DNA of 64,000 nucleotides from positions 124,001 through 188,000 of the forward strand of contig CANXME010001984.1 in assembly GCA_948144175.1 (NCBI GenBank). The letters are read 5' to 3'. The notes beneath the pieces are model-generated. The model saw nothing but the letters and a program-made list of their open reading frames with translations. It did no database searches and was not told the DNA's origin. This document shows positions 9,589-38,365 of the stretch, piece after piece. The translations under genes were made by a program, and so were the position numbers. The DNA is from Closterium sp. NIES-65 (Eukaryota > Streptophyta > Zygnematophyceae > Desmidiales > Closteriaceae). Each line of letters opens with the position of its first letter. The first letter of the stretch is position 1.

Positions 9589-12500
9589 ATGGGGTTCTAT
9601 CCCAGCATATTCTTCGGCTTCGTCACGGGAATCGTCGTTCTAGCGGGGATCAAATACATACAGAAAAGGCGACATGCGCAGCGCGTTCGCAAGGTGCACT
9701 TTTTCTTTGATCGCCTTCCATTCCCTGCTGTTTCCTCGTCATTTCCGCGCCTAGTTTACCCTTCCCGTCTAGCACGTGCTAAACGTTCATTCAATACCGT
9801 ACGCGTTATTGAGCAGATGGTGGATCTCGCGATGATGTCGTGCGTGAACAAGGAGGACCTGAGAAAGCTTATACCCAAAGAGCTCTACCCGACCTGGGTG
9901 CAGTTCCCGGAGTTCGAGCGGGTATGATGTAGACAAGTTGTTTTCATGTAACCAATACTTGCATAGTGAAGCCTCGAGCGCTACTCCGCCGTTTTCACTG
10001 ACTCCAGCGACAATGAAAACGTTAGAATGAGTTGCTTTCGAGCACTTTCGTCCTCTCCCCACGTGCAGGTGGAGTGGATCAACTACTTCCTCCGTGAGCT
10101 CTGGCCCAAGCTCAGAGAGGTGAGTCTCATGAGTTTCTCTTTGGCGCTGTGATCGTTCCTCTCAAACGCTCTTGGCGGAAGGCCGTCGTCTTCTTTACGC
10201 TGCTGCACTTCCACCAACCACCCTGTCTCAAGGCCGGTCTATTGCATCTTTCGCTTCTGGCGGAAAGAATATTCTTTTTGCGTCCTGATAACTCTTCTCC
10301 CCCCGCCCCCCCTTTTTACCACTGTCCCCGCCGTCTGCCGTTCACCCGTGTGCCTGCTGCACCGCGCGGCCCCGCAGGCCATATCAGGCGCGGTGATGAT
10401 GCAAATAGGCCCAGTGCTGGAGAGCTACCGCCCCCCCATGATCTCCTCGCTCAAGCTCACCAAGTTCAACCTCGGCCGCCTGGCCCCGCAGCTGGGAGGT
10501 GCGTGCAGTGCAGTGCAGCAGCGCGTGGGTATGGTGGTTTGGTTTGTCAGGAGTTGCCTGTCTGTCTGTCAGGAGTTGTGACCCATCTCCACGTGCTCCT
10601 CCTCCCTCCCCATGCTGTGCTGTGCGGCAGGCATAGACGTGGTGGAGACGAGGGCGGACGAGGTGGTGCTGCATGTGGACTTCAACTGGGTGGGCGACCC
10701 CTCCATCATCCTCGCCATCAAGACCGTCGTGGGCGTCGCGCTGCAAGTGCAGGTGGGTGGGTGAGTGCGGTGGCCATGGCAGGATAGCGGGCGGAGCATT
10801 CAGCCATGCATGAGGGTGAACAGGGCTGGGGGGCGACCCCTCTATCATCCTCGCCATCAGGACCGTCGTGGGCGTCGCGCTGCAAGTGCACTCTCCCGTG
10901 CAGGTAATTACCCTCGAAACCGGGGCTTTATCCAAGTGCCGTGCCCCAATGTGGCCCAACCCAGTGTGGCCCTCCCTCACCCCTCTCGTCACCAACTGCC
11001 TGCCTGTTCTTTCCTCTCCTGTTTCGTGACAGTACACATATTTTCTCTCCTCTCCTCTTCGCCCCATTCCCCGCACTTCCTTGCTCGCCACCAGGTGAAG
11101 AACCTTCAAATATGGGGAGTGTTCCGCGTGGCGCTCACGCCCCTCATCCCCACCATCCCATGCTTCGGCGCCATTGTCTTCGCCTTCACAAAGAAGGTAC
11201 ACGTACACCGTCACTGCGCCCCCTCTTCTGTGCTCATACCTGCTTCCATTCTCCTGAGGCGATTGTTGGGGCGCCTCAAAAAGGCCCTGACGCCCCTCAT
11301 CAACACAACACCATCCCATGCTTTGGCCTCATCAACACAACACCATCCCATGCTTTGGCCTCATCAACACAACACCATCCCATGCTTTGGCCTCATCAAC
11401 ACAACACCATCCCATGCTTTGGCCTCATCAACACAACACCATCCCATGCTTTGGCCTCATCAACACAACACCATCCCATGCTTTGGTCTCATCAACACAA
11501 CACCATCCCATGCTTTGGCCTCATCAACACAACACCATCCCATGCTTTGGCCTCATCAACACAACACCATCCCATGCTTTGGCCTCATCAACACAACACC
11601 ATCCCATGCTTTGGCCTCATCAACACAACACCATCCCATGCTTTGGCCTCATCAACACAACACCATCCCATGCTTTGGCCTCATCAACACAACACCATCC
11701 CATGCTTTGGCCTCATCAACACAACACCATCCCATGCTTTGGCCTCATCAACACAACACCATCCCATGCTTTGGCCTCATCAACACAACACCATTCCATG
11801 CTTTGGCCTCATCAACACAACACCATCCCATGCTTTGGCCTCATCAACACAACACCATCCCATGCTTTGGCCCCATCCGCTTTCACCAAGGAGGAAGGTG
11901 ACGTTCAATCTCAAGGTGGCGGGTGGTGACGTGACTGCCGTATCTGGATTGGTAGATTTGAGTCAACTCTGAAATCACCTACGCAGCCCAACCCACCCAC
12001 CCCGCTCCTTCACACACATACACTCTCCCCTCCGCGTCTCATGCCACCCACCCACGCATGTGACAGCCCGAGGTGAAGTTCAAGCTCAAGGTGGCGGGCG
12101 GTGACATTGCGGCCGTACCTGGCCTGGGAGATGCCATTGATGTGAGTGAGTCGCCAGGAGTCGGTGTGGTGTGGTGATGTGAGTCGAGTCGCTGTGATGA
12201 TGTGAGTTGGTGCGGTGATGTGATGGGATGATATGATATGATGATTTGATGGGACGATGCAATGGTGGCATGAGGATGTGAGTTGGCGCGGTGATGAGTC
12301 GGCATGGCATCGCATGGCATGGCATGGCATGGCATCTCTAGGAGGGAAAGGGCTTGCCTGATGCATTGTCTCCCTTGCCGTTGCACATTTTTTACCAATC
12401 CCCTGCTTTTGAGGGGATTGCAGCTGGCGCTAGGTTCTGTCAGTCATGTCTCTCTGTGACAAAGGATAGAGCCATGTTACGTCACCAGCACCTATCTCTG

Positions 12501-15500
12501 TTTCGCAGTGCTTTCTCTGTCCATCATCCCCACCCTGCGCTCCCTTCACCACCCTGCGCTCTCCCTGTGCACCCTGCGCTCTCCCTGTCCCACCCTGTAC
12601 ACTCTGCTGCAGGATCTGATTCGCTCAGCCATCATGGATTCGCTGGTCTGGCCGGTGCGCCATGTCATCCCCATTGTGCCCGGCAACTATGAGTGAGTTG
12701 CTGCCTGTACAAGTCTCACTGCCTTGTGAGTCGACTCAAATCAAAAGTCATGGCATCCCCATCGTGCCCGGCAATTATGAGTAAGTTGCTGCCCCCATCG
12801 TGCCCGGCAATTATGAGTAAGTTGCTGCCCCCATCGTGCCCGGCAATTATAAGTAAGTTGCTGCCCCCACCGTGCCCGGCAATTATGAGTAAGTTGCTGC
12901 CCCCATCGTGCCCGGCAATTATGAGTAAGTTGCTGCCCCCATCTTGCCCGGCAATTATGAGTAAGTTGCTGCCTGTACGTGTGTGTAGCTCCAGTTGCCT
13001 CCGTGAATTCCTCTCCTGTTCTTCATCCCATCGAGCTCTCACGTTGCCTTTTACCCCCCCTACTATCTTCTTCCACCCCTCATTCCCCACACCCTGACCC
13101 CATATTCCCCACATCCCAACCCCCTCCTCCAATCCCCACTTTCCCCCCTTCCCTCAACGCCAATCCCACCCTCTCCGCTACTTCTAAATGGGCACAGTGG
13201 GACTGTTAACGTTGAAACTCATGGAGGGCATTTCAATGTATCGTGAAACCCACTCTTATTCCACATGACTCACTCTTATTGCCCAACAACCCCCCCCCCC
13301 CCCCCCCCCCCCCAAGGTACCTACAGATGCGCACGGTGGGCGTGCTGGAGGTGAAGCTGGTGGAGGGCAGGGACCTCGTGAACCCCCCATTGCTCATTTC
13401 AAGCCCTTCCCCTCTTCTGTTTCTCTCCCGCTCCCCCCAGGTACCTACAGATGCGCACGGTGGGAGTGCTGGAGGTGAAGCTGGTGGAGGGGAGGGACCT
13501 CGTGAACCTGTCGCTGCTCGGCACCATCGACCCCTACGCCACTCTCTTCGTTCGCCCCATCCCTGCCCGCACCCGCCGCAGCCGCACCATTGTGAGTCCG
13601 AACCGAACCCTCCACGGAAGCACTTCGAGTCTTTCACGAACTACTGCTCCCCCTCCACGAACCACTGCTCCCCCTCCACGAACCACCGCTCCCCCTCCAC
13701 GAACCACCGCTCCCCCTCCACGAACCATCGGGATGAACCTCCATGCCATGGGACCATTATAATTCTTCAACTTGACAAACCATTGTAATTGGTGTGGCAT
13801 CCCCTTCCCGTTCAGCTGCTGTGGAGATTCAGCTAATTCGTAGATGTGGAAATAGGAGGAGCGAATGGCATGGAGGCACAGATGCACATCTGGCTTTCAA
13901 GTGCTCTGAGGCACAGAGACTGACTGATCTCCACTCTCCCCTTTCTTGCCTCCCTCCCTTGCGTTGGCAGGCCAACTCGGTGAACCCACTTTGGAACCAC
14001 TCGTTTGAATTCACCGTGGAGGACCCCGAGACACAGAGGCTCGTCATCAAGGTGAGGGTACAGTCTGTAACAGGCTGTGAAAGGTGTAACAGGTGTAGCT
14101 TCAAGGGAAATTCGGTCTGGTGAACGTGAGAGTTGAGATTAGAGCACGCTCTATGCCTGCATGTCCGATGTTGGCCCTCCTGCTTCCTTCTTTACTCTCT
14201 TTCTTGCTCTTTGAGCTCTCCCTGCTGCCTGCGTCAGTGGTGGGACGACCAGGAGCGGTCCGTGCGGCAGGAGGATGAAAGGCAGTGCGAGGCACCCCGC
14301 AGCTCACCCATGGCCTGCTTCCCCTTGCCCTCCCATCCCATCCCCATGCATCACTTGCAGGTGTGGGATGACCAGGAGCTGACGGCATCTCAGCCAGTGG
14401 GGCAGGCGGCCATTGTACTGGCAGACCTGCCTCCACTCACACAACCTTCCTCCCCTTCCCGCACCTTCTCCGCCACGCCTCACCCCCCCACCGCATGCAT
14501 CACGAACAGGTGTGGGATGACCAGGAGCTGACGGCATCTCAGCCAGTGGGGCAGGCGGCCATTGTACTGGCAGACCTGCCCCCGCTGAAGCTGGTGGACC
14601 GGTGGGTGCCCGTGGTGAAGGACGTGGACGACCCCAAGGCTGACACCCGCCCTCGCGGCTCGGTGCGTGTGGAGGTGCTGGCATGGGGTAGCAGCAGATA
14701 GCTTGTCATAACACAGCATGCAATGCAATCCCATGACGTAGCATGCCATTAGATAACAGACAAGGCAACGCAATGCAATCCCCCACTCTACCTCCCCCAC
14801 TCTACTTTCAGTCAACTCACAACGTTCCTTCTCCTTCACTCTCTCCCCTCCTCCCCACCCACCCCCGCTTCTCATCTCTCAGCTGCATCTGGAGCTGCTC
14901 TACCGGCCTGTGGACGAGAACGGGGTGCTGCTCGCCCCAGCCTACTTCACCCCACCAGCTCCCAAGACGCTCCAGGAGGCAACAGCAGCAGCCAACGCTG
15001 CAGAGGCACGGAAAACGCGGCAGGCGGGCGTGGGGTTTCTGAGCCCTATCAAGGCGCAGCAGCAGGAGGAGGGCGAAGAGGGGGGTGATGTGCCGGCGAT
15101 GGCTCTGGGTGGGGATCAGGGGGGGCTGGGGGTGGAGGACGGGGAGACCAAGTACTTGAGAGGCGTGCTGCAGGTGGTGCTGCTGTCGGGGCGAGAGCTC
15201 GTGGCGTGTGATATGAATGGGCTCAGTGACCCGTTTGCTGTTCTTGAGGTACGCACGCTCCTGCTGTGTTTTGAGGATGTGAGAGAACAGATCTAAGGGA
15301 TCTATGAAGTGTGGTTGTCATTATCTTCTCACATGACCTTCTCTCTCCCTCTCTCTCCCACCTCTCTCAACCGCTCTGCCTACCTGCAGCTACAGCTGGG
15401 AGGGCAGAGGAGGAAGTCACAGGTGGTGAAGAAGACGCTGGAGCCGGAGTGGAATGAGAACTTTGAATTCCTGGTGGAGGACGGCAAGCACGACATGCTC

Positions 15501-18049
15501 GTGGTGGGGCTCTTTGACCACGACCTGCTGGGCAAGAAGGTGAGCTTCTCTCATCAGGAAGGGCTTGCTGTTAGGTCGTGCGTCAGTCTGCAACAGCCAA
15601 CTTTGAGTTTCTCGTGGAGGACAGCAAGCACGACATGCTCGTGGTGGGGCTTATCGACCACGACCTGCTGGGCAAGAAGGTGGGCTTTCCTTATAACGTG
15701 TTGCTGGTGAGTATCTGTCACGGCCTTGGTGGAGGATGATTCCATGCCTGCCACTGTCCTCCACGCCCTCCCCAAGGTAAGTCAGCTTCACATCAGCATC
15801 AGCATCAGCATCACATCAGCATCAGCATCAGCATCAGCATCACATCAGCATCAGCATCAGCATCAGCATCAGCATCAGCATCAGCATCAGCATCAGCATC
15901 ACATCAGCATCAGCATCAGCATCAGCATCACATCAGCATCAGCATCACATCTGCATCACATCAGCATCACATCAGCATCAGCATCACATCAGCATCAGCA
16001 TCAGCATCACATCAGCATCAGCATCACATCAGCATCAGCATCAGCATCAGCATCAGCATCACATCAGCATCAGCATCAGCATCAGCATCACATCAGCATC
16101 AGCATCAGCATCACATCAGCATCAGCATCACATCAGCATCAGCATCACATCAGCATCACATCAGCATCACATCAGCATCAGCATCACATCAGCATCAGCA
16201 TCAGCATCACATCAGCATCAGCATCACATCAGCATCAGCATCAGCATCAGCATCAGCATCACATTAGCATCAGCATCAGCATCAGCATCAGCATCAGCAT
16301 CAGCGGATCAGCATCAGCGCATCAGCATCAGCGTATCAGCATCAGCATCAGCATCAGCGCATCAGCATCAGCATCAGCGTCAGCGCATCAGCATCAGCAT
16401 CAGCGCATCAGCATCAGCATCAGCATCAGCGGATCAGCATCAGCGCATCAGCATCAGCATCAGCATCAGCATCAGCGCATCAGCATCAGCATCAGCGTCA
16501 GCGCATCAGCATCAGCATCAGCATCAGCGCATCAGCATCAGCGCATCAGCGCATCAGCATCAGCATCAGCATCATCGCATCAGCATCAGCATCACATCAG
16601 CATCAGCATCACATCAGCATCAGCATCAGCATCACATCAGCATCAGCATCAGCGCATTAGCATCATCGCATCAGCATCAGCATCAGCATCAGCGCATCAG
16701 CATCAGCGCATCAGCATCAGCATCAGCATCAGGGCATCAGCATCAGCGCATCAGCATCAGCGCATCAGCATCAGCATCAGCATCAGCGCATCAGCATCAG
16801 AGCATCATCATCAGCGCATCAGCATCAGCGCATCAGCATCAGCGCATCAGCATCAGCGCATCAGCATCAGCATCAGCGGATCAGCATCAGCATCAGCATC
16901 AGCGCATCAGCATCAGCGCATCAGTATCAGCGCATCAGCATCAGCGCATCAGCATCAGCATCAGCGCATCAGCATCAGTGCATCAGCATCAGCATCAGCT
17001 TCAGCTTTCCGCATCAGCATCAGCGCATCAGCATCAGTATCAGCTTTCCACATCAGCATCAGCGCATCAGCATCAGCATCAGCATCAGCATCAGCATCAG
17101 CGCATCAGCATCAGCATCAGTGCATCAGCATCAGCGCATCAGCGTCAGCATCACATCAGGACAGCATGCCTCGCAGCAGCTGTCGAACAGACAAGCACGA
17201 CATGCTCGTCGTGGTTGCACTGTTCGACCATGACCTGCTGGGCAAGAAGGTGAGAGCTCCTCATGACTCGTTGGGCCAGAGGTGAGAGCTGGGCAAGAAG
17301 GTGAGAGCTCCTCATGACTCGCTGTTACGTGGAGCGTCAACGGGTGTGATCTGAGGCACCGTGCAGTGCAGCGACTGGGGAAGGATGGCAAGCACGACAC
17401 GCTGGTGGTGAGGCTCTTGGACCACGACAGCTGGCCAAAAGGTGAGTGAGAGTTCCTGTGTGGGTTGCTGTTGGCTAACGGTCAGTCATCAAAGGTGTGC
17501 TCTTCGGCACCTTTCACTTTCTTGCCAGCTTTGTGTTCCTCGTGGAGGATGACTACGGCTACGACTACGACCATACTACGATGAGCATTGCATGCTCGTG
17601 GTGGGGCTCTTCGACTACGACCTGCATGACTTGGATGAGAACCCCCTTCCCTGTATGACTTTGGTTGCCTGCATGTGATATATAATGTAGTCCTCATGCA
17701 TTTGGTATGGCTGGCAAGAGAGTCAGTATGTGTAGGCTGGTGGTGATGCATGAATTGCTGAGCTGGGATGCGCATGCGGGCTTCGTTTCTGCTTATGTTA
17801 CTCTTGGATGGAATAAGCATGCTCATTCTGGTATGTTGCTGAAAATTCTGCATATGTCTGTACTTGTTTTTGTCTAGCCAATGCCATGATCCATATCTTG
17901 ATGTCCCAAATTTGCAGGATAACATGGGTCGGCTGGGTGTGAGCCTCTCGAGAGTAATGATGGAGGGGCATATTGAAAACGAGTTCCAACTCATGGATGT
18001 GCCTCATGGATGGTTGAATTTGAAGTTAACATGGAAGCCTGTACCATAG
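9589..18049 (+). CDS. Plant synaptotagmin of the SYT4/SYT5 (NTMC2 type 2) class, 597 aa, 14 exons
   Basis: Exons 9589-9693, 9817-9921, 10069-10119, 10378-10498, 10631-10752, 11095-11196, 12067-12141, 12613-12692, 13441-13591, 13971-14051, 14510-14662, 14883-15248, 15390-15539 and 17918-18049 join in frame (1794 nt). Order of parts: N-terminal membrane anchor (residues about 3-25), SMP lipid-transfer domain (about 40-250, with KLIPKELYPTW, PCFGAIVFAF and SLVWPVRHVIPIVPGNYE), C2A (about 255-380) and C2B (about 468-595). The family tethers the endoplasmic reticulum to the plasma membrane; that role is inferred. In C2A the first Ca-binding Asp of loop 1 seems lost (NLSLLGTIDPYA against the usual D before the GxSDPY), while C2B keeps CDMNGLSDPF. 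Many exon fragments are duplicated: exon 5 tail (10825-10902), exon 6 (array at 11297), exon 7 (11890-11952), exon 8 tail (array at 12745), exon 9 (13317-13385), exon 11 (14361-14440) and exon 13 (15608-15680, 17190-17250, 17387-17440, 17570-17630). Confidence 0.9.
11297..11876 (+). repeat. 32-bp minisatellite derived from synaptotagmin exon 6
   Basis: About 18 nearly perfect copies of a 32-bp unit (CATCAACACAACACCATCCC followed by ATGCTTTGGCCT) fill the intron between exons 6 and 7. The unit matches the 3' half of exon 6, where CCCCTCATCCCCACCATCCC is followed by ATGCTTCGGC. The array starts straight after an interrupted palindrome (arms CTGAGGCG and GCGCCTCAAAA, 11254-11281). An altered copy of exon 7 sits at its far end. 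The array is open in several frames, which gives false long ORFs. Confidence 0.9.
12745..12975 (+). repeat. 36-bp minisatellite derived from the end of synaptotagmin exon 8 plus its donor site
   Basis: Six to seven copies of a 36-bp unit (CCATCGTGCCCGGCAATTAT, then GAGTAAGTTGCTGCCC) follow exon 8. Each copy repeats the last bases of the exon (CCCGGCAACTATGA) together with its 5' splice site, so the intron carries a ladder of potential donors. The first copy begins just after the palindrome-like GTGAGTCGACTCAAA at 12726-12740. Confidence 0.9.
15786..17157 (+). repeat. 1.4-kb CAGCAT hexamer array in the last synaptotagmin intron
   Basis: The stretch is built of CAGCAT with interspersed CACAT, CAGCGCAT, CAGCGT and CAGCGGAT variants. 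CACAT interruptions dominate the first third and CAGCGCAT the rest, showing higher-order structure. It lies in the 2.4-kb intron before the final exon, between degenerate copies of exon 13. It is open in frame for about 500 codons as a Ser/His/Gln/Ala/Ile repeat, which I treat as non-coding. Confidence 0.95.
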
Positions 18050-18927
18050 ACTGTAAGGGGACTGAGATTATTGATTTAACTCATTAATGATAAATGAGTA
18101 TGGAGCTGTTTCGTATCTGTTGTATGGAGGAATAGGAACTCTTATTTGACATGTGGGAGCTTAGTGTCCCAATCGAAAGGGCACTGTAGTATTGCGGGCA
18201 TGAGAGTTCATTGCATTTAGGATCTGTTGGCCTTATATCGGCAATAGGTAATGTATTGTACCCTGAATCCCAGTCGAATGCACCGTGTCGCGGCATTTCC
18301 AACGATTGACCTGTCCAAATTCGACCGCCCTTGCAAGCCACCCGAGCCTTCAGCGATTTGTTCGTGCGATGACACCCTGGTGTTACACACCTGCAAGTAA
18401 CTTCTTCGCGATAGGACGAAGAGATTTTGCGACGACTCGAATCCAGCCAATTCGAAAGGCATCTTTTTGGGACTTGCTGCGCTGGCGCGCTTTGGTGACT
18501 CCGTTGCTGCTCGGTCACGAGGCGCTTCCAGAAATCTCGCCCGAAATGTGAGTCGCAGACTCGTCGTCATATCGGATTACCAGCCACTGTAATTCTCAAT
18601 TCGTCGTCGCATTCCACCATCCAGCCATCCATCGACCTCGCGAATTCGCAATGTCACCCACAATCCATCGCCAAGTCCGTCGCTATGTTTTATTGCGAGC
18701 TCAGCACTGAAAAGGGCCTTGTAGCTCTTTTTCCTGCAGTCAGCCATTCAGTCATTAGTCAGACTTTAGTAGGCTCCGTAGCAACGGATTCTAGTGTAGG
18801 ACCTGAGTGATCAGCCCATGTTTCACGGCTTCAACCCAGTAACGCAGGTTGATAAACGAGCCGTGACGTTAGAGAACGAGCAGTGGAGACAGTGGTGGGT
18901 AAATTGAATACGGTTCATTGATCTTCA

Positions 18928-19499
18928 ATGGCGTATCAAGGGCCTCCTGTCACAGCACCGCCCAATCAAGGTGTGACGCGTGTTGCCTCTGTAGCAGCAA
19001 TCTATCGCATGCTTCAAATACTGCGCTTGTTTTCGATCCTCCAATTCAGCCGCTAGGTTGAAATACAATTCCCTGGACGCAACTAACCCGTCGCACACTC
19101 ATCTGCAGGTTATCATTTCTGTCGCGACGGCCATTCGTCTCCGCCTGACTGCACGTCGCCCACGGAAGCCTTCACTAACCCCCTCAGCCTCAGCCGCAGC
19201 AGTAGCAGCGGCAGCGGCAGCGGCGCGGGGCACTACTACCAGTACTACCATTGCGACTCGCCGCCGCCGTGCAGTGGCGTGATCGTGACGAACAAAGACG
19301 CGAGCTTCTACGACAACTGCTGCGTCGCGCTGTAAGCTGACAAGCTGATACGCCAATAAGCTGTTATCGACTCTTTTTGCTCCGTTAGCAAAGTGTGAGT
19401 GTCGTACAAGACAGTTTGTTCATGGCTGACGCGCGTGTCTCTTGTTCCTGCAGAGTATCGGTGCTCTGCTGCTGCTGGGTAATAGACGGCTTCGTCTGA
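18928..19499 (+). CDS. CYSTM (cysteine-rich transmembrane module) peptide, 103 aa, three exons
   Basis: Exons 18928-18970, 19109-19331 and 19454-19499 join in frame (312 nt). The product begins MAYQGPPVTAPPNQGY, as plant CYSTM proteins do with a separate short first exon. It has a Ser/Gly/Tyr-rich middle containing CDSPPPCSG and ends in NCCVALVSVLCCCWVIDGFV, a Cys-clustered hydrophobic module typical of CYSTM tails (PF12734). CYSTM proteins are small membrane-associated, stress-related peptides; that role is inferred from the family. If exon 2 were read through instead of spliced, the protein would stop at 19335 after 89 residues without the module. The acceptor TTCCTGCAG before exon 3 supports splicing. 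The middle region has extra cysteines that are unusual for the family. Confidence 0.6.
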
Positions 19500-20680
19500 C
19501 CGTCGTCCGTCTGGACTCCCATCGCCTGACCACCTTCATTTGAAGGACTGAACTCGCACTGCTGAGTCGCGCAACGGAAACAAGCTTCGGATTCCAGGCA
19601 AAAGCAGCCTTTGATGCTCTCTGCGTTCCATTTTTGTTGGTGCTGAGTGGGTGTTTCCATACGAAGTATGGATAGGAATGTTTGCTTTCTAGGTTGTACA
19701 ATAATTGATTGCCATCAGAATTCTCAGAGTACGGTACAAGAACAAGAACCATAGCAAGTAAGCTGTCATGCACAGTAGTGTGTAGTTGTGCAGGGTATGC
19801 TTTTGCACGGCAATTTGAAGGCTTGTTGAAGAGAAGTGGGGTGTGTGTATTGGGGGAGAGGGGGGAGACATTTCAAGAAGAAATAAGGGCGTGCTACATT
19901 TTTTATATTCGCTGAAAGTCCGGACGGCTGTGACCAATGCGACGTCGTAAGGAGGCAGTACGAAAGATACGACGTCGTTTAGACCCTGACGACCTCACTG
20001 CTGAGTCTTGTAACCACACAATCGTCCGGACGGCTGGCTGTCCGGACGAAAAAAATGAAAAATGTAACACGCCCTAAAATACTAGCAAATTATAAAACAG
20101 CCCCTTCACACCCAACCCAACCCAGTGTCAAAATTGCCCTAAGATGCTCTTTTAACTAGTAACATATAAACCTAGATAGAGTAGCTTAGCCACCACCTTT
20201 GTGACACCATAACCCTGACAGGTAGGCAGGGACACACCACATCACTAGTCACGAAGGTTTTTCCACGCTGAGTCAGCACATCCCCAGCAGACGCTTTCCG
20301 GACCTGCCACCACCACGGGCAAAACAAGTCCCCGTCCCCACAGCGCATGAGGGGGGGTGCTTTTTCCAGCCCACGCTTTGTTTATCCTTTCTGCCAGGTT
20401 CCTCTGCTCGAAGTGTCCTTCTCCGAGTAACTCCTGCTCGTGCCGTCCCATGCACGCCACCAGCAGCAATGGAATGGCACATGCACCATGTGCATGGGGA
20501 GGCAATTCTATTGTCAAACACCTGCTTCTCCAGTATCCACTCATCCCCTTGGCACGACCAGCTCACCCCTCCTCCTCCTCGCCCATCTATCCCCATCCTC
20601 CCCCCCACACCCTCACGTCCATTTGACCCTCATACCTCTTTGAGGCACCTTGAAGTTGCCCACATCATGCCATGTCACGC
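19500..20680. other. Intergenic region, no gene recognised
   Basis: The segment downstream of the CYSTM gene contains AT-richer sequence and no exon I can support on either strand. Two related short blocks containing CGTCCGGACGGCTG occur near 19920 and 20025, together with two ACGACGTCGT-like stretches, which may be decayed inverted-repeat sequence. The 20640 area has a weak TTTGAGGCACCTTGAA palindrome next to the first metallo-beta-lactamase exon copy. Confidence 0.4.
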
Positions 20681-20689
20681 TGCCTAATG

Positions 20690-21010
20690 CTTGCACCCAT
20701 GCACCTCTCCCCCCACCTGCTGCAGCATCGCATCCCTCTGCCCCTCGCTGGCCCACTGACGCACACGCGCACTCATGCACCTCCACACTGCATGCATTGG
20801 CCCTAGCCCAGCCGCGTCTGCTCCCCCGCCACCACGTGCGGCAGCATAGCGACCCTCTGCTCCTTGCTGGCCACAGCACACAAGCGCACTCATGCACCTC
20901 CCCCACCCCCCCCCCCCCCACCTCCCTAGTGGCCCCGCCGCAGCAGCGCCTCGTCGCCTGCCACCACGTGCTGCTGCATCGCGTCCCTCTGCTACTCACT
21001 GAACAAGTGT
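20690..21010 (-). pseudogene. Three decayed copies of the last Fd-MBL exon
   Basis: On the minus strand, three segments repeat the end of the adjacent gene's last exon, whose product reads EQQRDAMLQQVVAGEEALL. Copy 1 (about 21000-20925) reads QRDAMQQHVVAGDEALLRRG but has a TAG in place of the first Gln codon. Copy 2 (about 20885-20815) reads EQRVAMLPHVVAGEQTRLG. Copy 3 (about 20760-20700) reads EGQRDAMLQQVGGE. They lie downstream of the stop at 21076 and are probably non-coding or 3' UTR. Confidence 0.75.
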
Positions 21011-21075
21011 GTGCGCCATGAGTGCTCCCATGCACTACCCCACGGCGTCACCCATGCTCCCATGCATGCCCCTTC

Positions 21076-23980
21076 CTAACGGCCCCGCAGCAGCAGCGCC
21101 TCCTCCCCCGCCACCACCTGCTGCAGCATCGCGTCCCTCTGCTGCTCACTCGCAAAGTGAAACCGCCGCCCGTGGCCTGGGTACACACGTGTAGGGAGGA
21201 GAAAGAAGGGGGCGATGGGAATGAACGATTGGGACTGAGTGCGAGCAGGAAATGTGACGAGGAGGGACGAGAGGTGACACAGGCTGGGAAGAGAATGGGC
21301 AGGCACTTGGGAGGTGGGCGCCGGCACTAGAGATTGATAGTCTCCCGCCCATCCCAAGGCGGCAGGAACTACCGCAAAACTGATGTAAATCCCTCACACC
21401 GCTACACCTGGCAGCACCGCGCCTCACCTGGCAGCACCGCGCCTCACCTGGCAGCAGCCAGCGGAAGGGCAGCCCCACCAGCTTCTTGGTGCTCTGAATC
21501 TGCACCGGCACTGCTCTCGTGGTGGCGCGTGTCACATGACAGGGGAGCGAAGCCAGGGGGGCCGGGGGGTGACAGGGGGGTAAGGGATCACGGAGTGACC
21601 TTATACTGGGTGCAAGTGACAAGGGGCAAGGGGCAAGGGGCAAGGGGCAAGGGGCAAGGGGCAAGGGGCAAGGGGCAAGGGGCAAGGGGCAAGGGGCAAG
21701 GGGCAAGGGGCAAGGGGCAAGGGGCAAGGGGCAAGGGGCAAGGGGCAAGGGGCAAGGGGCAAGGGGCAAGGGGCAAGGGGCAAGGGGCAAGGGGCAAGGG
21801 GCAAGGGGCAAGGGGCAAGGGGCAAGGGGCAAGCGGCAAGGGGCAAGGGGCAAGGGGCAAGGGGCAAGGGGCAAGGGGCAAGGGGCAAGGGGCAAGGGGC
21901 AAGCGGCAAGGGGCAAGGGGCAAGGGGCAAGGGGCAAGGGGCAAGGGGCAATGCATGCGCGTACAGAACAGAGGAGGCAGCAGTGTGAAGCAGCAGAGTG
22001 GCAGTGCTGCTCCGGATTGCATCCACTGCAACCCTTTCTTTCTACTAGAGACGTCACACGGCTGCGTTCAACTCCCTTTGACTTGAGTTGACTTGGGTTG
22101 ACTCACCCGAGTACCAGTTGACTCGTCTCATTATGGAAAGGCTTTCCGTATTTGGAGCGTATGCCAGATGATCCCCTGAGAAGAGCGCCCCTCCGTGCGC
22201 CTTATACAGCACACTCACGGAGCCCTGCGCACAGTGTCAAGGGTGGGGGGTGGGGGAACGGGAAAGGGAGTGGTGGTTTCAGCGCACAGTCCGCCTCTTC
22301 TCCTGTGAGCAGGCAGCGCACAGTCCGCCTCTTCTCCTGTGAGCAGGCAGCGCACAGTCCGCCTCCTGCTCCGCAGAGCAGGGCAAAGTCCGCGAGCAGC
22401 GCCCCTCTGTCCGCCTTAACGCACACTCACGGAGCGCTGTGCACAGGAAAATGCGCAAAAGGAGGGGGCTAGAGGAGAGATGCGTTCTCCAGGTCCGGCC
22501 TGGTGCCGCCCGTCCAGCAGCGACGGCTGCAACCGCACTTCCCCTACCGATCACTTCTGCGCTCACCTCCGTGTGGCCGGGAGTGAAGATGATTTTAAGG
22601 TCCGACCCCAGGCACCAGGGCCACGTGCCGTCCAATAGCATCTCCACCTCGCCCTACCCATTTCAACCGCGCTCTTCCCGCCCTCACCTCGGTGTGACCA
22701 GGAGTAAAGATGATCTTGAGGTCGGACCCAAGGCACGGGGCCCCCTGCCGTCCAATCGCATCTCCACCTCGCCCTATCCACTTCAACCGCGCTCTACCCG
22801 CCCTCACCTCGGTGTGACCGGGAGTAAAGACAATTTTCAGGTCCGACCCCAGGCACCACGGCCCCGTGCCGTCCAATAGCATTTCGACGTCTGTCGTGTC
22901 GGGCTGCACCTCCAGCGCGTGCAGGACACGCTCCGCCTTGAACCGCGCCGCCCACCGCGCGTGGTCCGCCACGTCGTCGCGGTGCGAGAGCACGATGTAG
23001 CGCACGCCGCCCATGCGCGCGAGTGTCTCCGCCAGGTGCTCCGAGTAGCGCGGGCAGTCCACCATCACGTTCCCCGCCGCGCGCTGGATGAAGTAGGACG
23101 CGGCGCCGAAGGACTTGCGCGAGTGGTAGCCGCAGTGGAACACGCCGGGCAGCGCCGCCGCGTCGATGGGCAGCGGGAACGCGTCGCGTGCCCGCGGCAC
23201 GAGCGATAGCGAGTCGCGCGAGTGGATGGAGGCCGTCGGGCACGACAGCAGCGCCTGGGCGCAGGGAAGGCGGGGTAAGGCAGGAGGAAGGAGGGGACAA
23301 GGCAGTGGGAAGGCGGGGGAAAAGGCGGGGGAAAAGGCGGAGGGGCGAAAGGGATGAGGGAGGAGGAGAACGAGCGACGATGGATGGAGCTGTAGGGCAC
23401 GACAGCAGCGCCTGGGCTGGGGAAAGGCGGGGATAGAGAGGAATAAGTGACGGCATGGCATGGGGAATGAGCCGAGGCCGTTGGGCAATTTTGACACCAG
23501 AATCCCTCAATATGTTGCTTTATTGTTCTTGGTTTATTGCTCGTCGTTCATCCTTCGTTGTTCGTTCGTTAGTTTGTTCGTTAAAACCCTTTCGCATACC
23601 TGCAGCGCCTTGACGGTGGTCGCCTCGTCGCCGGGCTGTGCGAACACGGCGGACTGCGACCCGACCTTGGCGAACACTTCGGGCGCCATCCAGCGGCACA
23701 CGTCGCAGTTGATGCACGTGTGGTCCACGTAAAAGTCGCCCGCCACGTTTTCGCCACGTGGCGCCCTCGCGCCGCCCACCCGCTCGCCCACCTGCTGCGC
23801 CTGTGCCTCGACCTTGAAACTCGGGATTCGCGGCGCTGCTGACGTGGCAGGGATTGCTAAAGTAGATTGCGACCACCCGGCGCTGTCCCTCCAACCGACG
23901 GCGCCGCCTCGCCGTGCCGTCAGCGGCGGCGCCACTCGCAAGCCGCCGGCCGCGGAGCAAGTCGCGAAAGCTATAGCCAT
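21076..23980 (-). CDS. Ferredoxin-domain plus metallo-beta-lactamase protein, probably plastid, 369 aa, five exons
   Basis: Exons 23980-23600, 23254-22808, 22224-22107, 21510-21448 and 21176-21076 join in frame (1110 nt). The first 60 or so residues are Ala/Ser/Arg-rich and look like a chloroplast transit peptide. A single [4Fe-4S] ferredoxin-like motif follows: CINCDVC near residue 88, and the distal Cys in LLSCPTASI at the exon 1/2 join. The metallo-beta-lactamase part has SHRDDVADH, FTPGHTEGS, FSGDHLAY and LPGHGRRFHF, the four metal-binding blocks in the right order. This architecture matches a conserved plant family of unknown substrate (similar, from memory, to Arabidopsis At4g33540). 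The end of exon 2 is present in two further partial copies at about 22680-22760 and 22570-22650, a degraded exon 3 copy lies near 22370-22440, and the exon 4 donor segment is tripled at 21412-21450. Confidence 0.85.
21617..21952. repeat. 7-bp GGGGCAA array in an Fd-MBL intron
   Basis: About 47 copies of GGGGCAA run almost without change through the intron between exons 3 and 4 of the Fd-MBL gene. Two units read GCGGCAA (near 21832 and 21902), about 70 bp apart, which implies block amplification. All frames stay open as Pro/Leu/Ala/Cys or Gly/Lys/Gln repeats, giving spurious ORFs. Confidence 0.95.
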
Positions 23981-24796
23981 TTCCGCGCGCGTGCCGTGCA
24001 AGTATGAAGCAGCAATCAACGGTTCGTACGAAACTCTGAGGCGCTTAGGATTTCGTCAAATCTGGAATGTACTAGTCACCCACTTAAGGTGGTGTGTGTG
24101 TATACGCGCTATGCATACGACGAGGAGGAATATGATGTCGTCTGGTCCACAGTACGTTGCGAACACAACCCGTTGAAAGGCTTCTTGCTAGTCTTTCTCC
24201 CGTGGACGTATTTATTCTGACGATGCTCTAGCAAGGTTTGCGTGTAATTGAAGAGAAAAGCTGAGAGAAGTTGTGCTGCATTCCCGTTGGAAGTCTATTC
24301 CAAATTCCCTCGGGTTTGCTGCCTCCCACACATCACACACCCATGTAACGTGCCAGTCCCCGTCAATCAAGGTGTTTCGGTTTGGTCAGTCCCTGGTTGA
24401 GCGGAATGCTTTCCTGGCACCTTGTCAGATCTGCACATACACGTCACATGTAGCCGCAAAACTGCCTATTCGGCAAACTTCCAGCTCATATTGGATGAGA
24501 ATGCGCTGGTTCAAGGGTAATTCCAATCTTGAAAATATCGCCTGTCCATTCGCGACGGGGTCGCTGGCTCGCACGGCGCAACATGACGCGCTCGCGAGGG
24601 AACGGGTTTCGTGCGCTGTCGGCATGACAGCGAATTTCGCACGTGCGACGAGATGTATAGCTTGGCCAAGACGATTGGGGAGGCACCTGATGCGTGTTTC
24701 TGCACGAATTCCATCCCTAATAACTTATAAATAATATACAATAAATACAGTGCATTTTCATTATGGCAAGTCAGAGTTGGAGTGTTAGCTAGGTTG
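23981..24796. other. Intergenic spacer between the Fd-MBL start and the EDR2-C gene end
   Basis: The right part of this stretch is AT-rich 3' flank of the EDR2-C gene and the left part is the Fd-MBL upstream region. No exon with recognisable residues was found on either strand. The TAATAACTTATAAATAATAT run at about 24717-24741 may act as a polyadenylation region, although it is on the promoter side of the Fd-MBL gene. Confidence 0.4.
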
Positions 24797-27700
24797 TCAA
24801 TTGAGGCATCCGAAGTGAGAGAGCTCCAGATGGTGCAGCCTCACACATGTCAGCACAGGCTCCGGCAATTCCTGGGGTGAATTACCCTGGTGGGTCAAGC
24901 AAGAAGGGCAATACAACTCACAAGAATTCAATCTACTGTAACATGAAGCAAAAAGGTGAGGATGGGTGCCCGCATTCATTCCCTCTCAACTGTGAATATA
25001 TAACATAATAATTTGTTAGCTGGATTTACTGAAAGGCGGAAATCCACACTTGTGCTGAACATTGGTCACTGACAGCGACTCACACAAAAGGCACACATGG
25101 TGAAGACTCACCTGCAGCACGAGTGCAATGTCGAGGATGGCATCTGGCAGGTGGGGGCGCAGGGAGAGCAGCGCCTTTTGATGGGCGGGGGGGAAGGCAT
25201 GCGCGTCTATGTCCAGCTCCATGTAGGGCTGGGCGGATGACTGAGGGAAGGGGGGAGAAGGGGGGCGAGAGGGGGACGGGGGAGTTGATATGATAGAGAA
25301 AGGGGGAAAGCATGTGCCTCTATGTCCAGCTCCAGGTATGGCTGTGTGGACGACTGGGGGAAAAGGGGGAGAAATGGGGAAGAAGTGGGGAGAGTAGCAG
25401 GGAGGAAGGGGAAGGAGGATGGATGTGATAGGAGGGACAGGAATGCCCAGCCACAGGTAAGGCGGGGCGGACGACAGGGCGAGAGGGGGAAAGGAGGGGA
25501 GAGGAGGGTTGTATGAGATATGATGCACACAGTACGGTAGCACGCTTCTCACCTGCAGAACAGTGTGGTAAGGGCGAGTGAGTCCAGCCTTTCCCGAGCA
25601 CCCCTCCACCAGCTTCTTGCCCGCCGCACTCAGTGCCACCTCCCCCTTGTTCACCATCCTCACCATCAGCTTCGGCCGGTCCCAAACCACCTTCTCCACT
25701 CCGCCTTCCCTTTCCCCATCATCTCCCCCGGACCTTGACCACCGTTCCGACTTCCCCCCGTGCTCCCTCCCAACATGCTCCTTTCCCCCATGCTCCTTCC
25801 CCCCGTGCCCCTGCACAGCCACCTCCCCTCCCATGGCGGTATCATCAGCAGATGAGTAGCTGGACCAGCTGCCCCTACGCCTGCCACTGTTGCTGCGCCG
25901 TGTCTTGCTGCCGCTGCTGCCGCCACTGGTGCCCTCAGCATGTGCGACCGAACGCTCCGCCTCTCGCCCTGCTGCAGCATCACATGCAGCCACCCCATCC
26001 ACGGCAGCCACCCCATCCACGGCTGCCGTGCCTGCTGCCCCGTGCGGCTGCTCTGCGCGCTTCACCGCCTCCTCAGTCGCTGCACGAGGCACGTGGGGGG
26101 AACCTTTCTCCGCCCTCTTCCCTCCCCCCTCGCCTTCTCCCTCCACTGGCGCTCCTCCTTGCCTCCCTAGGCCGTGCCTTGGACCCCATGTACGCAAAAC
26201 TGGCTGCAGATATGCAGGCAGCACAGGGGTGAATGGACGGGCAGCAGCACAGGGGGTAACGGACGGGCAGCAGGAGATGAGAGTTGGTGAGGAGAATGGG
26301 AGTGGGTACGGAGGCTGGGATGGTAGGAGCACGCATGCATGCATGCATGCATGAGTGCAGGAGCTGGGCCACCCCTATAAATTAACCTCATATTCTATAC
26401 CCCATACCCACATTGCCTCTCTCTATCTCTCTCTGCTCAACCCCATGTGCACGGGAGCCTCTGCCTGGCTGCACCAGTGCACCACCAGGCGACAGTACAG
26501 CACCACACTCAGCCCCGGGCGGTCCACACACATGCCCATAGCCCCACACCCCCATAACCACAAGCTCACGTACCCCCATCTGTGCAGGAGCGCTTGCCTG
26601 AGAGCCAGTGCGCCCCCAGCAGGCAGTACAGCACCACACTCAGGCCTGGCCCGTCCCACATGTGTCCATGCCCCCATGCTGCACACCCCTGTAACCACAG
26701 GCCGACGTACCGCCATCTGTGCAGGAGCGGTTGCCTGGTTGCGCCAGTGCGCCCCCAGGCGACAATAGAGCACCACACTCAGGCCCGGCCCATCCCACGC
26801 CCGCTGCTGCAGCGAGAGCAGCGGCGGGGGTGGCTGCAGGGGCAGCTGGAGGGTGGGCAGGGGAGGCCGAGGGGGTGGCAGAAGAGGGGACAGAGGGGCC
26901 GGACAGACGGACGAGAAGCCAGTAAGGAGGAGTAAGGAACCACAGTTTCTGGGAGCATACGCTCACGCTCACAGGTGCTCCACACGGGTAAACACAGGTA
27001 GTTGGAATGGCAAATCACACTGACAACTCAACGTTGTAAGCTCACGCACTTATGACCGCCCACCCAACTTCCTTCCTTTCCCTACTCAGCCCCCTCTGTC
27101 CCCTCTTCCTCCATCCCACACCTGCCCTTTCCCTCTCGACACGCATGAGTGCTGACCTGGATGTTGACGATTAGCACGGGTGGCAGCCCGTTGCTACTCT
27201 GCGCTGCCGGCTCGCTGCCAGGTGGCGGCACGAGAGCGGCTGGGAGGTCCACGTGGGCGGCAATGTGGCGGATCTTCCTGGACGTGTGAAAGACGTCTGC
27301 CGCCCAGGGCTCGTAGAGAGGGGGGGCAGCAGGGGCGACCTTGGCTCCATCACTGCACGGATGAATGGGGGAAACACAGTTGGAGTTTGGGAAGGGAGGA
27401 GAGGGGACACATGAAAGTCGTCTGCCGCGCACGGCTCGTAGAGAGGGGGCGCGGCAGGGGTGACCTTGGCTCCGTCACTTCATGCATGAGGAAGGGAACA
27501 CCGTCAGGTGAACACAACACAGCAGAAGGGGTGACGGGCAGATGTGCAGAGGCAAGGCGAACGGAGTGACACTTCATGGGAGAGCGGGTGGACGTGTGGA
27601 CGTGTGAACGTGTGGAGGACGCCTACACGCCCACACTCGTCCTCTCCTCACCTGGCATAGCTGGGACCTCGCACGAGCAGCAAGGAGGGGTCAGCAGGCG

Positions 27701-30700
27701 ACCAGCAGTTGGTGGCAGCACGGGCGGAGGGCGAGCAGCGAAACAGCTGCGAGCCCGCCCGTGGCCACATCAGCAAACGCTTCACGGCTGGAGTGCGGGT
27801 TGGAGAGGGGGAAAGGGGGAGAGGGGTCGGAGAGAGGAAAGGGGAGGGTAGAAAGAGTCGAGTCGGAAAAGCTGAGAGGCTGCCGAGGGCAGCGGTTACA
27901 TCAGCAGACGGGGCAACTGGGCAACCGGGCAACCAGGAAGCAATAGAGATGAGGTGTCGTGTGCTGGTCTCATCGCTGCAACTAAATCTCTCAATCTGCG
28001 AGCTATCCTTCTCCTGTCCCTCCCCTCCTGTCTTTCTCCTTCCCCACAGCATGGGTCTGCTCTCAGCATGGGCTGAGAGCAGGCTATGGAAAGAGCTTGA
28101 CTCACACTCGCTGGGGTTGAGAGCAGATGAGGTGCGGAAGAGTCTAGACAGCAGCGCGCCACCGCTACCAGATGCTCCTGACGTGCGCTCCAGGAGAGAC
28201 CCTCCACCCCCTGCCCCTGCTGCACCCGGCCGGTCCATTCCCATGCCCCCACTGCCAGCAGCTGCAGAAGCGTCAAGTGAAGGGAGCCTCATGCTGCCAC
28301 TAGACCGACCACGGTCCACTGTGGAGGGAGCTTCAGCATCTGTGCCCGCCATGGCTGGTGGTGGTGGGGAGTGGGTAGGGGCGGGGGGGAGTGGGGAGGG
28401 GCAGGGGGGAGTGCGGACGGGATGGCTTTTGAGTCGACTCAGAACACGGGAGCATCGAGAGAAGGGAGCCTCATGCTGCCACTCGAACGACCACGGTCCG
28501 TTGTGGAAGGAGCTTCAGCGTCACTGCCCGCTATGGCTGGTGGTGGTGGAGAGTGGGGAGGGGCGGGCAGCGGGGAGTGTGGTGTGGCCAGGACGGGATG
28601 ACTTTAAAGTGGACTAAGAAGTCTAAGGGTAGTGCGACAGGGTAGTGTGGAGTGGAGAGAGCTTCGGCGTCGGTGAAGTGAGGGGAGGGGCAGGCATGGG
28701 GGAGTGCGGTGTGGACGGGATGACTTTTGAGTCGACTCGAATAACGGGGTGCAGGGAGGGTACAGCAGGGAGGAGTGCAGACGTTTGGGAGTAACAACAA
28801 CAAAGAACGGAGGATTGGAATGGGAAAGACCGAGAGGAAGAGAGGGGGTACATGAGGTCCGGCAAGCAAAGTCGAAATGGCACGCATACATTACTGGCGG
28901 AAGAGAATGGCAGCAGATATAGAGCAGAGCAAGAGCAGAAAAGCAGAGGGGGAGAAGCGCAAGAGGGGGAGAAGCGCAAAAGAAAGGGAAGCAGGGATGA
29001 CCTTGCAGCAGAGAGGCAATAGTGCCAGAGTGAGACTGCAGAGATTTCCATTTCTTCAACGTCCCTGGCCTTCCCCCTCTGCCTTCTCCCCCACTCCTAC
29101 CACCACCACTAGCTCCGTAACCACTCATCGCACCACCACCACCACCGAAACTGCTACCCCCGAGGGAGGCAGCAGGGGACGGAGCAGCGGCGTCGGCAGG
29201 GGAGGGCGAGAGGAGGGAGGAGGAGAGGAGTTGCAGGTTGGAGACTCGCTGCTTGGCCGAGCCAAAGTCGGTGCTGCGCGTGCGGTACGGCAGCGAGCGC
29301 GGGGTGGTGGGACGGGGGAGAGGGGAGTGGGCGGCGGGGGAGGGGCTGGGGAGAGGGGAGTGGGGGACAGGAGGGGGGCGGTCCAGCAGTGTCTGTAACT
29401 CGTGAAAAGGCTGCTGCTGGCAGGAGTCGAGTGCTGGAGGGGAGGCTGAAGGTGCTGCTGGTGTTGGTGCTGCTGTTGTTGGTGGTGCTGGTGCTGTTGC
29501 TGCTGGTGCTTTTGGTGCCGCTGCTGGTGTTGCTGCTCCACGGGTGGGCGATGGTGGCGGTTCAAACGGATGTGCGGTGGCGGCTAATTGAGGGCCGTTG
29601 GGTGCTGCCGGGGAGTCAGATGGTGGCATGACATCTGCTGTTGGTGCCAGAGGTGCAGTTGAAAGCTGAGCGGCACTTGATGCAACGGCTGCTGCATTAC
29701 CCACAGCCTCATCACCCACCAAATCATCAGTGACAATACTTGTGTCAGTGGCGTTAGCTGAGTCAGTGATATTGGTCGTGTTGGTAGCATTGACCACTGC
29801 AGCAGTGCCACGTGGGTCAATATGAGAGGCTGTATCAACAGTACTGGTTATGCCAATCGCATTACTAGCAACAGTAGCTGGGTCAGTAGCAGCAACACTG
29901 TGAGCAGCACCAGCGGTGGCAGCAGCAAGAATGGTGTCAGAAGCCCTAGAGTCAGCTGTGTTAGTGCTTCTTACTGTGTCACTCTGCCTTGCTGCCACTG
30001 CAGGGTTAGCAGCAGCAGCAGCAGTGGCAACAGCAGCTGCAGCAGTGGTCTTTTCAGCAAGCGGGCGTTGAATGGGGAATTGGGTGGGAGGCTGTGAGCG
30101 GGAGGGAGTGCGAGGGCGAGTGGGGGTGCGAGGCCGAGAGGGTGTGCGCGGGTTGGGCGAGCGAGGAGGAGGAACGGAGCGAGGAGAGCGAGGGGGGGGA
30201 ATGGAGCGAGGGGAGGACTGGGAAAAGGAGCGCATGGAGTTGCTGCGAGAGAGGGACTCTGGAGGGGACGACAGAAGGGGCAGGGGAGGAGAATGGGTAG
30301 TGAGGACAGGACGGGTGGATGGATCAAGGGCGCATGTGGGGGTAAGGGCACTCATGGGGGAAGGACAGCAGCAGTGCAGGTATGATACAAAAGAGTTGAG
30401 GAGAACACACTGAAGAGTTGGGGAGAACACACTGGAGCGTGAAGCGCGAAAGGGAGCACGTAAACGGGGTGAAAGAGGGGTGGAGCAAGTGGGAGAGGAA
30501 GCAATGGGGAGAGGGAGCACGGGGGAGAGCACGGGGGAGAGCACGGGGGAGAGTTAGCACGAAGGGGGGGGAGCAAGGGGGAGAGGAAGCAAAGGGGGGA
30601 GGGAGCGAGCACGGACCCGCCACAGAGAAGAACTCGTCCGGGTCGTTGAAATCATCACTGTTGTTGCTGCCTCCATCGCCACATCCATCCCCATCCCCAA

Positions 30701-37802: not shown

Positions 37803-37931
37803 GTTAAAGCATGTGTGTGCATATACATGTACGAGCAACCATTGATCAAATGTGTGAAGAAAATAAAAACCGACGGAAATGTCAACGAATGTGTCGGGCG
37901 CGAGACGGCGCTTCTTCTTCTCCTTGTTTCC

Positions 37932-37936
<5 letters not shown>

Positions 37937-37979
<43 letters not shown>

Positions 37980-38089
37980 CGGCCCAGCGTACACTCGGTA
38001 GGATGTGGTTGTGCCTGCCCTTAGTGCATAGGAGATGATGCCTATGGCCATGGACACACTTGTCCATTGTGTTTCTCTTATTCTCTCTT

Positions 38090-38152
<63 letters not shown>

Positions 38153-38271
38153 CTCTCCCTCTCCCTCTCTCTTTCATGCTCTCTCTTACTCGTAGTTCAT
38201 GGGGGCTGGTGCGTAGAATCATGGACATGCGTGCCCACCATGTTGTATCTCGTTCTTTCTCTTTCTCTCTT

Positions 38272-38328
<57 letters not shown>

Positions 38329-38365
38329 CTCTCTCACACACACACACTCTCTCTCTCTCTCTGAT
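37937..38365. repeat. Poly-T tract and two CT microsatellites
   Basis: A 43-base T run (37937-37979) is followed by CT/TC tracts at about 38090-38155 and 38275-38330, with a short CACACA bridge and another CT run to 38361. They sit between the gag-like stop and the reverse transcriptase start of the YR element, so they may have expanded from a shorter spacer. They produce false Arg/Glu and Ser/Leu repeat frames. Confidence 0.95.

Follow-up and report, generated by a model that had tools for sequence, protein, structure and literature searches.

In a 64,000-nucleotide stretch of the Closterium sp. NIES-65 genome (contig CANXME010001984.1, positions 124,001 to 188,000, here C1686:124001-188000; this whole stretch is referred to as the window), a palindrome of roughly 25 letters recurs at the edges of duplications within genes. 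The same palindrome starts the pseudo-long terminal repeat (pseudo-LTR) in two families of Penelope-like retroelements, one of them represented in the window, and its insertion is supported by an empty site and by the statistics of the duplications that flank it. We consider it probable that the palindrome is the 5' end of a Penelope-like pseudo-LTR and that its solitary copies are micro-insertions of that end alone; the mechanism by which they are inserted is one we infer. The initial annotation had suggested, as one of two possibilities, that the palindrome is the footprint of a small element. This idea has gained ground, as insertions of the palindrome are numerous and mostly flanked by duplications, and a possible source lies at 48932-52820 in the window.

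Palindromic inserts between direct duplications

The palindrome is present at each place where the initial annotation had located a copy, and also at 4540-4555, 49411-49432 and 52805-52820, in numbers far above those in simulations. The sites outside the retroelement, to which no strand is assigned, are as follows.

3026-3041: exact TTTGAGTCGACTCAAA, inside a 22-bp insert (3020-3041)
12725-12740, 28428-28443 and 28726-28741: near copies of TTTGAGTCGACTCAAA, one mismatch each
4540-4555: decayed palindrome, two mismatches to TTTGAGTCGACTCAAA, absent from the earlier list; flanking duplication not above the random level
11957-11972: decayed palindrome, three mismatches to TTTGAGTCGACTCAAA, bordering an exon 6-7 copy on the right
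11265-11280: palindrome of the GGCGCC type, decayed, bordering the same copy on the left
28601-28620: decayed palindrome, in the second copy of the duplicated segment 28269-28444 / 28451-28620

Allowing up to 0, 1, 2 and 3 mismatches, TTTGAGKCGMCTCAAA has 3, 7, 8 and 12 sites in the window, compared with means of 0, 0, 0.08 and 0.63 in 40 third-order Markov simulations. Two core forms had been proposed, and only one of them is enriched in the window. With at most one mismatch, the bare core GAGTCGACTC occurs 8 times against 2.0 expected, a count reached in none of 100 shuffles, whereas GAGGCGCCTC shows no significant enrichment (7 against 3.9, with 9 of 100 shuffles reaching 7). The latter is exact only at 49417 and 52808, neither of them listed previously, and has one mismatch at 11268.

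A genome-wide count had been proposed as a check on the palindrome, and its outcome is clear. Across 874,075,685 bases in 2400 contigs, TTTGAGNNNNCTCAAA occurs 38,285 times against 31 for its reversed control, GAGTCGACTC 24,925 times against 739 for the reversed pattern, and the 28-mer GTGACTTTTGAGTCGACTCAAAAGTCAC 1013 times against 0; these counts include redundant copies, the retroelement locus being present again on C1650 and another site on three contigs. The 1013 sites with both arms exceed the roughly 321 that 24,925 cores and 5660 single arms would predict if the arms were independent, an excess inflated by tandem arrays. Chance or composition as the origin of the palindrome was rejected by the window simulations and the genome control counts, the bare GAGGCGCCTC core in the window excepted. 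Among viral contigs, two matches carry a palindrome 18-mer, both in AT-rich DNA dissimilar to the window, and bases 1-25000 of the window have no match in phages.

Most sampled copies of the palindrome are flanked on both sides by direct copies of local sequence, those at L003 and L015 not visibly so. The sample comprises 15 loci from a search with GAGTCGACTC, five of them from one array, and the whole of contig C6 (153,685 bases), chosen as the first contig with matches. At 32 of 49 measured sites (array members no more than 60 bp apart merged), palindrome-bearing inserts of 15-40 bp, with a median of 26.5 and a permitted maximum of 42 bp, lie between direct duplications of 11-94 bp. Examples are C6:109300 (23-bp insert, 60-bp duplication at 100%), C6:123338 (23-bp insert, 23 bp at 100%) and L039 (23-bp insert, 71-bp duplication at 94%). 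Of the 20 separate sites on C6, 13 pass a strict test for flanking duplication, as do 347 of 5000 random positions (6.9%; p ~4e-11), and a test with a looser offset is passed by 17 of 20 site clusters and 588 of 5000 random positions; half-motif sites on this contig pass in 11 of 115 cases. When all sampled sites are taken together, array members included, 30 of 51 pass (both L016 and its repeat L017 being counted), compared with 311 of 4000 random positions (7.8%) and 8 of 1606 swapped flanks (0.5%). Some duplication lies within 150 bp at 35 of 38 non-array sites. For this 38-site count, the 20-site tests on C6 and the arm-pairing analysis below, array members up to 120 bp apart were merged.

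C6 holds 35 palindromes of at least 18 bp, 30 of them of the type described here; an adjoining duplication is flagged at 20 of these 30 and at none of the other five. In the C1686 stretch, the corresponding numbers are two of four for this type and one of nine for others, the one lying within a tandem array. An empty site was found in a paralogue at C6 73853-73923 (reverse strand), which keeps the flanks, has no palindrome and carries the 20-bp duplicate in single copy; a paralogue of C6:72529 is full of repeats of its own and uninformative in this respect. Given that the empty site has neither the palindrome nor the second duplicate, the palindrome is unlikely to have seeded the duplications, which look like target-site duplications from its insertion.

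The centre of the palindrome is usually TCGA, GCGC, ACGT or AATT among the listed sites, and others, among them TTGA, TCAA and ACAT, look like the result of CpG decay. Outer arms pair at positions 2, 3 and 4 in 34, 21 and 23 of 38 sites (19.6, 12.0 and 14.3 when shuffled) and near chance from position 6 outward. Early clean sites had hinted at a constant insert length or a trade-off between arms, but neither was borne out (arm lengths: r = 0.24, p = 0.19, n = 32). A longer palindrome of 50 bp with CGTGTAGATAGGTT arms and the same core type stands at C6:135275-135324, with a 29-bp flanking duplication. Tandem arrays with the palindrome in the unit occur at C6:107988-108157 (37 bp), C6:131437-131670 (53 bp) and C6:136183-136467 (mostly 24 bp), as if a target-palindrome unit had been amplified following insertion.

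The palindrome at the start of Penelope-like pseudo-LTRs

The retroelement in the window has the following parts.

48932-52820, minus strand: the whole Penelope-like retroelement, its two pseudo-LTRs in direct orientation
48931-49429 and 52322-52820, minus strand: pseudo-LTRs, 499 bp each, 99.8% identical
48884-48931, no strand: 3'-side copy of the target-site duplication, identical to the other at 47 of 48 positions
52818-52865, no strand: 5'-side copy of the target-site duplication, 48 bp
49273-51252, minus strand: open reading frame (ORF) 2, a putative reverse transcriptase of 659 aa (YIDDGFIVWPG)
51150-52364, minus strand: ORF1, 404 aa from stop to stop
49411-49432, no strand: inner palindrome ACTTTTGAGGCGCCTCAAAAGT, at the start of the 3' pseudo-LTR
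52805-52820, no strand: outer palindrome TTTGAGGCGCCTCAAA, at the 5' end of the element and adjoining the duplication

Both pseudo-LTRs start with the palindrome, and the inner copy lies in frame within the C-terminal part of ORF2, where it is read as LLRRLKS. The first ATG of ORF1, a frame with no Pfam match, is 13 nt ahead of the pseudo-LTR end that is also the 3' end of the element. C1650 carries the same insertion, with identities of 100% across 751 bases and 99.8% across 601. When the pseudo-LTR was used as a query, 40 of 42 matches (the query and its allele included) extend to position 486 or beyond, and 31 of 42 are 5'-truncated; as the query begins at the palindrome, copies starting at position 1 are no proof of a boundary. 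The remaining two span positions 1-141 only (C2400:3307175-3307317 and C2073:180605-180747) and are possibly longer relatives of the micro-insertions. The element thus has the fixed 3' end with 5' truncations, and also the pseudo-LTR or partial tandem organisation, by which Penelope-like elements are recognised. From its motifs, among them a YIDD read by eye, we take ORF2 to belong with Penelope, and it is on motifs and architecture that the predicted reverse transcriptase is here called Penelope-like. The genome matches listed for it number 69, of which 44 have no internal stop; 67 of 525 first-look candidates were scored. Tandem copies about 6 kb apart, mostly with open frames of 762 aa, are found on C927, C969 and C2347. 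Viral contigs hold no relative of the reverse transcriptase, and a comparison of ORF2 with PDB sequences returned only two unrelated receptor chains (E 0.79 and 0.91).

A second Penelope-like family has the palindrome in its GTCGAC form. On C95, a reverse transcriptase with 47% identity to that of the window has a 28-bp palindrome 1.7 kb upstream. In the 161 bases read there, the palindrome is followed by LLSRLKSHLDIMSRDIFTGRRAILAWKL, matched to LLRRLKSRLFTRNFYIDRILVAWK of the window element, and the sequence after the palindrome encodes LLSRLKS...ILAWK, akin to LLRRLKS...ILVAWK in the window; C21 has the same layout by coordinates. A search with the 5' end of this family, which does test the boundary at the palindrome, gave 49 rows. 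Of these, 17 could be assigned to inner (9) or outer (8) copies from their position relative to reverse transcriptase matches or, on C1652 and C2069, from a pairing of about 3.57 kb; the query's own row, one inverted copy (C191) and the rows with no placement were not used. Inner copies lie within or beside the C-terminal region of the reverse transcriptase, or are assigned by the spacing of pairs. All nine begin matching at the core (query position 25), and six of the eight outer 5' ends match 3-9 bases further out, from positions 16-22, into the inverted arm; the two outer copies on C1847 may not be independent of each other. The extra arm in the query is an inverted copy of the right arm (the letters of the outer copies were not read), and such an arm at outer ends is expected from fold-back synthesis at the 5' junction. 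On C191, a pseudo-LTR end at 245266-245376 lies on the strand opposite a nearby Penelope-like reverse transcriptase and is possibly an inverted pseudo-LTR.

Remodelled genes and local duplications

Genes in the window have been remodelled at the palindrome, with the following features.

3020-3041, no strand: micro-insertion of 22 bp, TCTGC + TTTTGAGTCGACTCAAA, between 3005-3019 and 3042-3056, which are identical at 14 of 15 positions
12661-12710, plus strand: left copy (50 bp) of the duplicated exon 8 end, splice donor included; 45 bp by mechanical alignment, the last 5 by eye
12711-12748, no strand: 38-bp micro-insertion in which the palindrome 12725-12740 lies
12749-12978, plus strand: right copy of the exon 8-end duplication, grown into a 36-bp array of six units
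28428-28443, no strand: palindrome with one mismatch, closing the duplicated segment
28726-28741, no strand: palindrome with one mismatch, closing a third, partial copy of the segment
11281-11956, plus strand: exon 6-7 copy from the SMP-domain gene, lacking intron 6

The duplications reported at palindrome edges are real, for example 12661-12710 / 12749-12793 and onward, and 3005-3019 / 3042-3056; further ones are 28269-28444 / 28451-28620 and 11896-11957 / 12071-12132. Across 28269-28741, the palindrome is carried within the duplicated segment. Enrichment within 50 bp of a duplication edge, proposed as a test in the initial annotation, is seen in the window (5 of 10 sites against 18% of random positions) with a mechanical list in which two duplications are missing, that of 15 bp at 3026 and that of 48 bp around the retroelement.

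The gene with the exon 6-7 copy encodes an SMP lipid-binding domain. This copy, in which the exon 6 part has grown into an 18-unit array of 32 bp, is bracketed by two decayed palindromes (11265-11972) and aligns to the spliced exons with a score of 112, compared with 58 for the unspliced sequence (array collapsed for the test). The missing intron 6 suggests that the copy passed through an RNA intermediate. Alternatively, the copy may derive from a decayed paralogue.

Palindrome insertion accounts for several odd gene-internal duplications. It is not the only mechanism of duplication, as had been recognised at the outset: of 206 local pairs in 258 kb, 29 carry the palindrome by a loose pattern. 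Local direct duplications, from 18 bp up to several hundred in length and no more than 200 bp apart, have a density of 885/Mb in C6 and 673/Mb in C1686:104001-208000, which includes the window, and most in both are free of the palindrome. In the spacers of 169 of the 206 pairs (those left out have spacers above 110 bp or too short for the motif), the palindrome is found at up to 6 mismatches in 31, against 4.5 expected, and the more diverged the duplication, the more decayed the palindrome (rho -0.48, p 0.006, n = 31). The median duplication length is 72 bp overall and 60 bp for palindrome-bearing pairs. These similar lengths are compatible with one type of lesion that received differing fillers. 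Repair of opposed nicks is reported, in the cited part of PMC5730883, to yield short direct duplications; these share with ours their shortness, and with the breaks envisaged here two opposed nicks that leave protruding ends, and differ in that no mobile-element sequence is described there at the junction.

Two other repeats were observed in the window. In an element at 35296-41080 that looks DIRS-like, long inverted repeats (35296-35651 versus 40713-41080, and 35995-36749 versus 39431-40180) surround ORFs in which a zinc-knuckle-like motif and, at 36969-38333 on the minus strand, a reverse transcriptase are seen. A degenerate 8-bp repeat (TTAGGCTA) extends across 1.2 kb at 46-1273.

Insertion mechanism, alternatives and known systems

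If the solitary palindromes are copies of the pseudo-LTR end, the element's RNA would form a hairpin at its 5' end. Where a break is staggered, the reverse transcriptase of the element would prime on a 3' end and copy the hairpin only, and fold-back synthesis would render the arms symmetric. Being self-complementary, the product could then pair with itself or with its counterpart across the break, and overhang fill-in would then seal the break, leaving target, palindrome and target, and hence a duplication. Palindrome-free duplications could represent the same type of staggered break repaired without an insert. As neither ORF has a recognised endonuclease, pre-existing breaks are plausible insertion sites. 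It is possible, and we suggest it tentatively, that the palindrome has become a mobile unit in its own right, about 20-30 bp long, its hairpin RNA copied in trans by the Penelope-like reverse transcriptase into staggered breaks, where the palindrome would act as a sticky patch joining the two sides. If so, we know of no smaller family of mobile sequences, and it would be a considerable source of gene-internal duplications in this genome.

A number of observations weigh against micro-insertion of the pseudo-LTR end. Copying of the 5' end alone is unusual for target-primed reverse transcription, which begins at the 3' end. Three of the 38 non-array sites have no duplication within 150 bp, and several others only a distant one; two of the three are the retroelement's own palindromes, whose duplication copies stand 3.9 kb apart. 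Only one empty site was found, and a site checked on other contigs is filled on all three. Of the 169 local duplications whose copies are at most 110 bp apart, 138 show no recognisable palindrome, and no flanking duplication surrounds the whole exon 6-7 copy. Two of the eight outer ends (C450 and C2069) have no extra arm, nor has the window element, and two relatives, C2177 and C2188, have no such palindrome in the 1.8-1.9 kb read upstream of their reverse transcriptases. As for the enzyme, the Pfam RVT_1 match of ORF2 (E 6.6e-5, 23.2 bits) is under the curated cut-off of 29.6, and its predicted fold is of low confidence (pLDDT 36). A GIY-YIG endonuclease is unmatched in ORF1 and ORF2 at E up to 10, in a search where weak matches can be filtered out, so that the element is at most an endonuclease-deficient member of the Penelope-like group. 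No hammerhead ribozyme was matched in the pseudo-LTR, and Rfam returned nothing at the gathering threshold and two chance matches (E 1.9 and 2.1).

The alternative that fares best accepts both insertion and origin, and differs only in the last step, so that its chances overlap with those of the preferred reading. Ready-made short fragments of the element end, such as cDNA stubs or excised hairpins, could have been passively captured as filler at end-joined staggered breaks, with no reverse transcription in place. Arguing for this, local duplications with other fillers are common (the 206 pairs above), and duplications arising from the repair of breaks with protruding ends are described in the cited part of PMC5730883. 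Counter to this, the 15-40 bp inserts are mostly one end of one type of element and their arms are symmetric, and we regard passive capture as unlikely, though still worth weighing.

Far less probable is the other proposal of the initial annotation, in which the palindrome is a pre-existing hairpin hotspot that prompted template switching or breaks, with duplications arising around it. It would explain why the palindrome lies at duplication edges and why units of palindrome plus flank were amplified into arrays (C6:107988, C6:131437). The proposal is not supported: at most sites the palindrome lies between the copies and not inside them, the only empty paralogue has none, the five other C6 palindromes among the 35 of at least 18 bp have no adjoining duplication, and 38,285 near-identical sites call for a copying source. 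The perfect palindromes and the symmetric variation of their arms could also be read as a DNA transposon or miniature inverted-repeat transposable element (MITE) reduced to two fused terminal inverted repeats. A transposase gives a fixed duplication length, whereas here duplications range over 11-94 bp; there are no terminal repeats around an internal region, the 15-40 bp inserts holding little besides the palindrome (32 of 49 sites), and the palindrome lies within the coding sequence of a reverse transcriptase family. We consider this origin very improbable. Low-complexity coincidence, or a motif unrelated to insertion, has the unenriched bare GAGGCGCCTC core in its favour and can be dismissed in view of the window shuffles and simulations, the genome control counts and the C6 flank test.

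Returning to micro-insertion of the pseudo-LTR end, the element remodels genes, through partial exon duplication with a splice donor and through short arrays, by inserts that are very small for repeat finders. MITEs and introner elements are likewise short, high-copy, non-coding insertions in genes; they are much longer than the palindrome and have short target-site duplications. In a search of the literature, with subscription journals mostly outside its reach, nothing was found on palindrome-only micro-insertions; four palindrome 18-mers were absent from the text of 5.39 million papers, and of the 52 papers with the GAGTCGACTC 10-mer, none among the 20 listed looks relevant from its title.

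The closest parallels are with Penelope elements of Adineta vaga and Anolis carolinensis. In the former (Pen2_Av and Pen3a_Av), palindromes of 18 bp and a near-perfect 38 bp stand at the 5' end of the pseudo-LTR, and self-priming was proposed from them (PMC3846280, in the part cited). The window element shares with these the palindrome, the partial tandems and the first ORF codons within the pseudo-LTR; solo pseudo-LTRs and host sequence captured between pseudo-LTRs are further likenesses, and the exon 6-7 copy recalls such captured sequence, although introns stayed there (same part of PMC3846280). The A. vaga elements differ in encoding an endonuclease, in target-site duplications of 8-10 bp and in low copy number, and palindrome-only insertions, present here in tens of thousands, are not described in that part of the text (PMC3846280). 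In the Anolis Poseidon/Penelope element (PAc), reverse transcription begins internally in an RNA stem loop, and both target strands are cut and extended; its insertion 3' end lies within the start of an ORF, as at 48931 (PMC11167929, in the part cited). PAc differs in having an endonuclease and a hammerhead and in an initiation stem loop 111-118 bp into the ORF, compared with 13 nt here, and the cited part of PMC11167929 does not describe palindromic micro-insertions. Palindromic pseudo-LTR ends are already known (PMC3846280, as cited), while mass insertion of the end alone, not found in print, is apparently new. The cited parts of both studies (PMC3846280, PMC11167929) leave unsettled how the 5' junction of Penelope-like elements is formed and why their pseudo-LTRs carry palindromes. 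Tens of thousands of palindrome copies, many with measurable duplications, provide a statistical record of this 5'-junction step.

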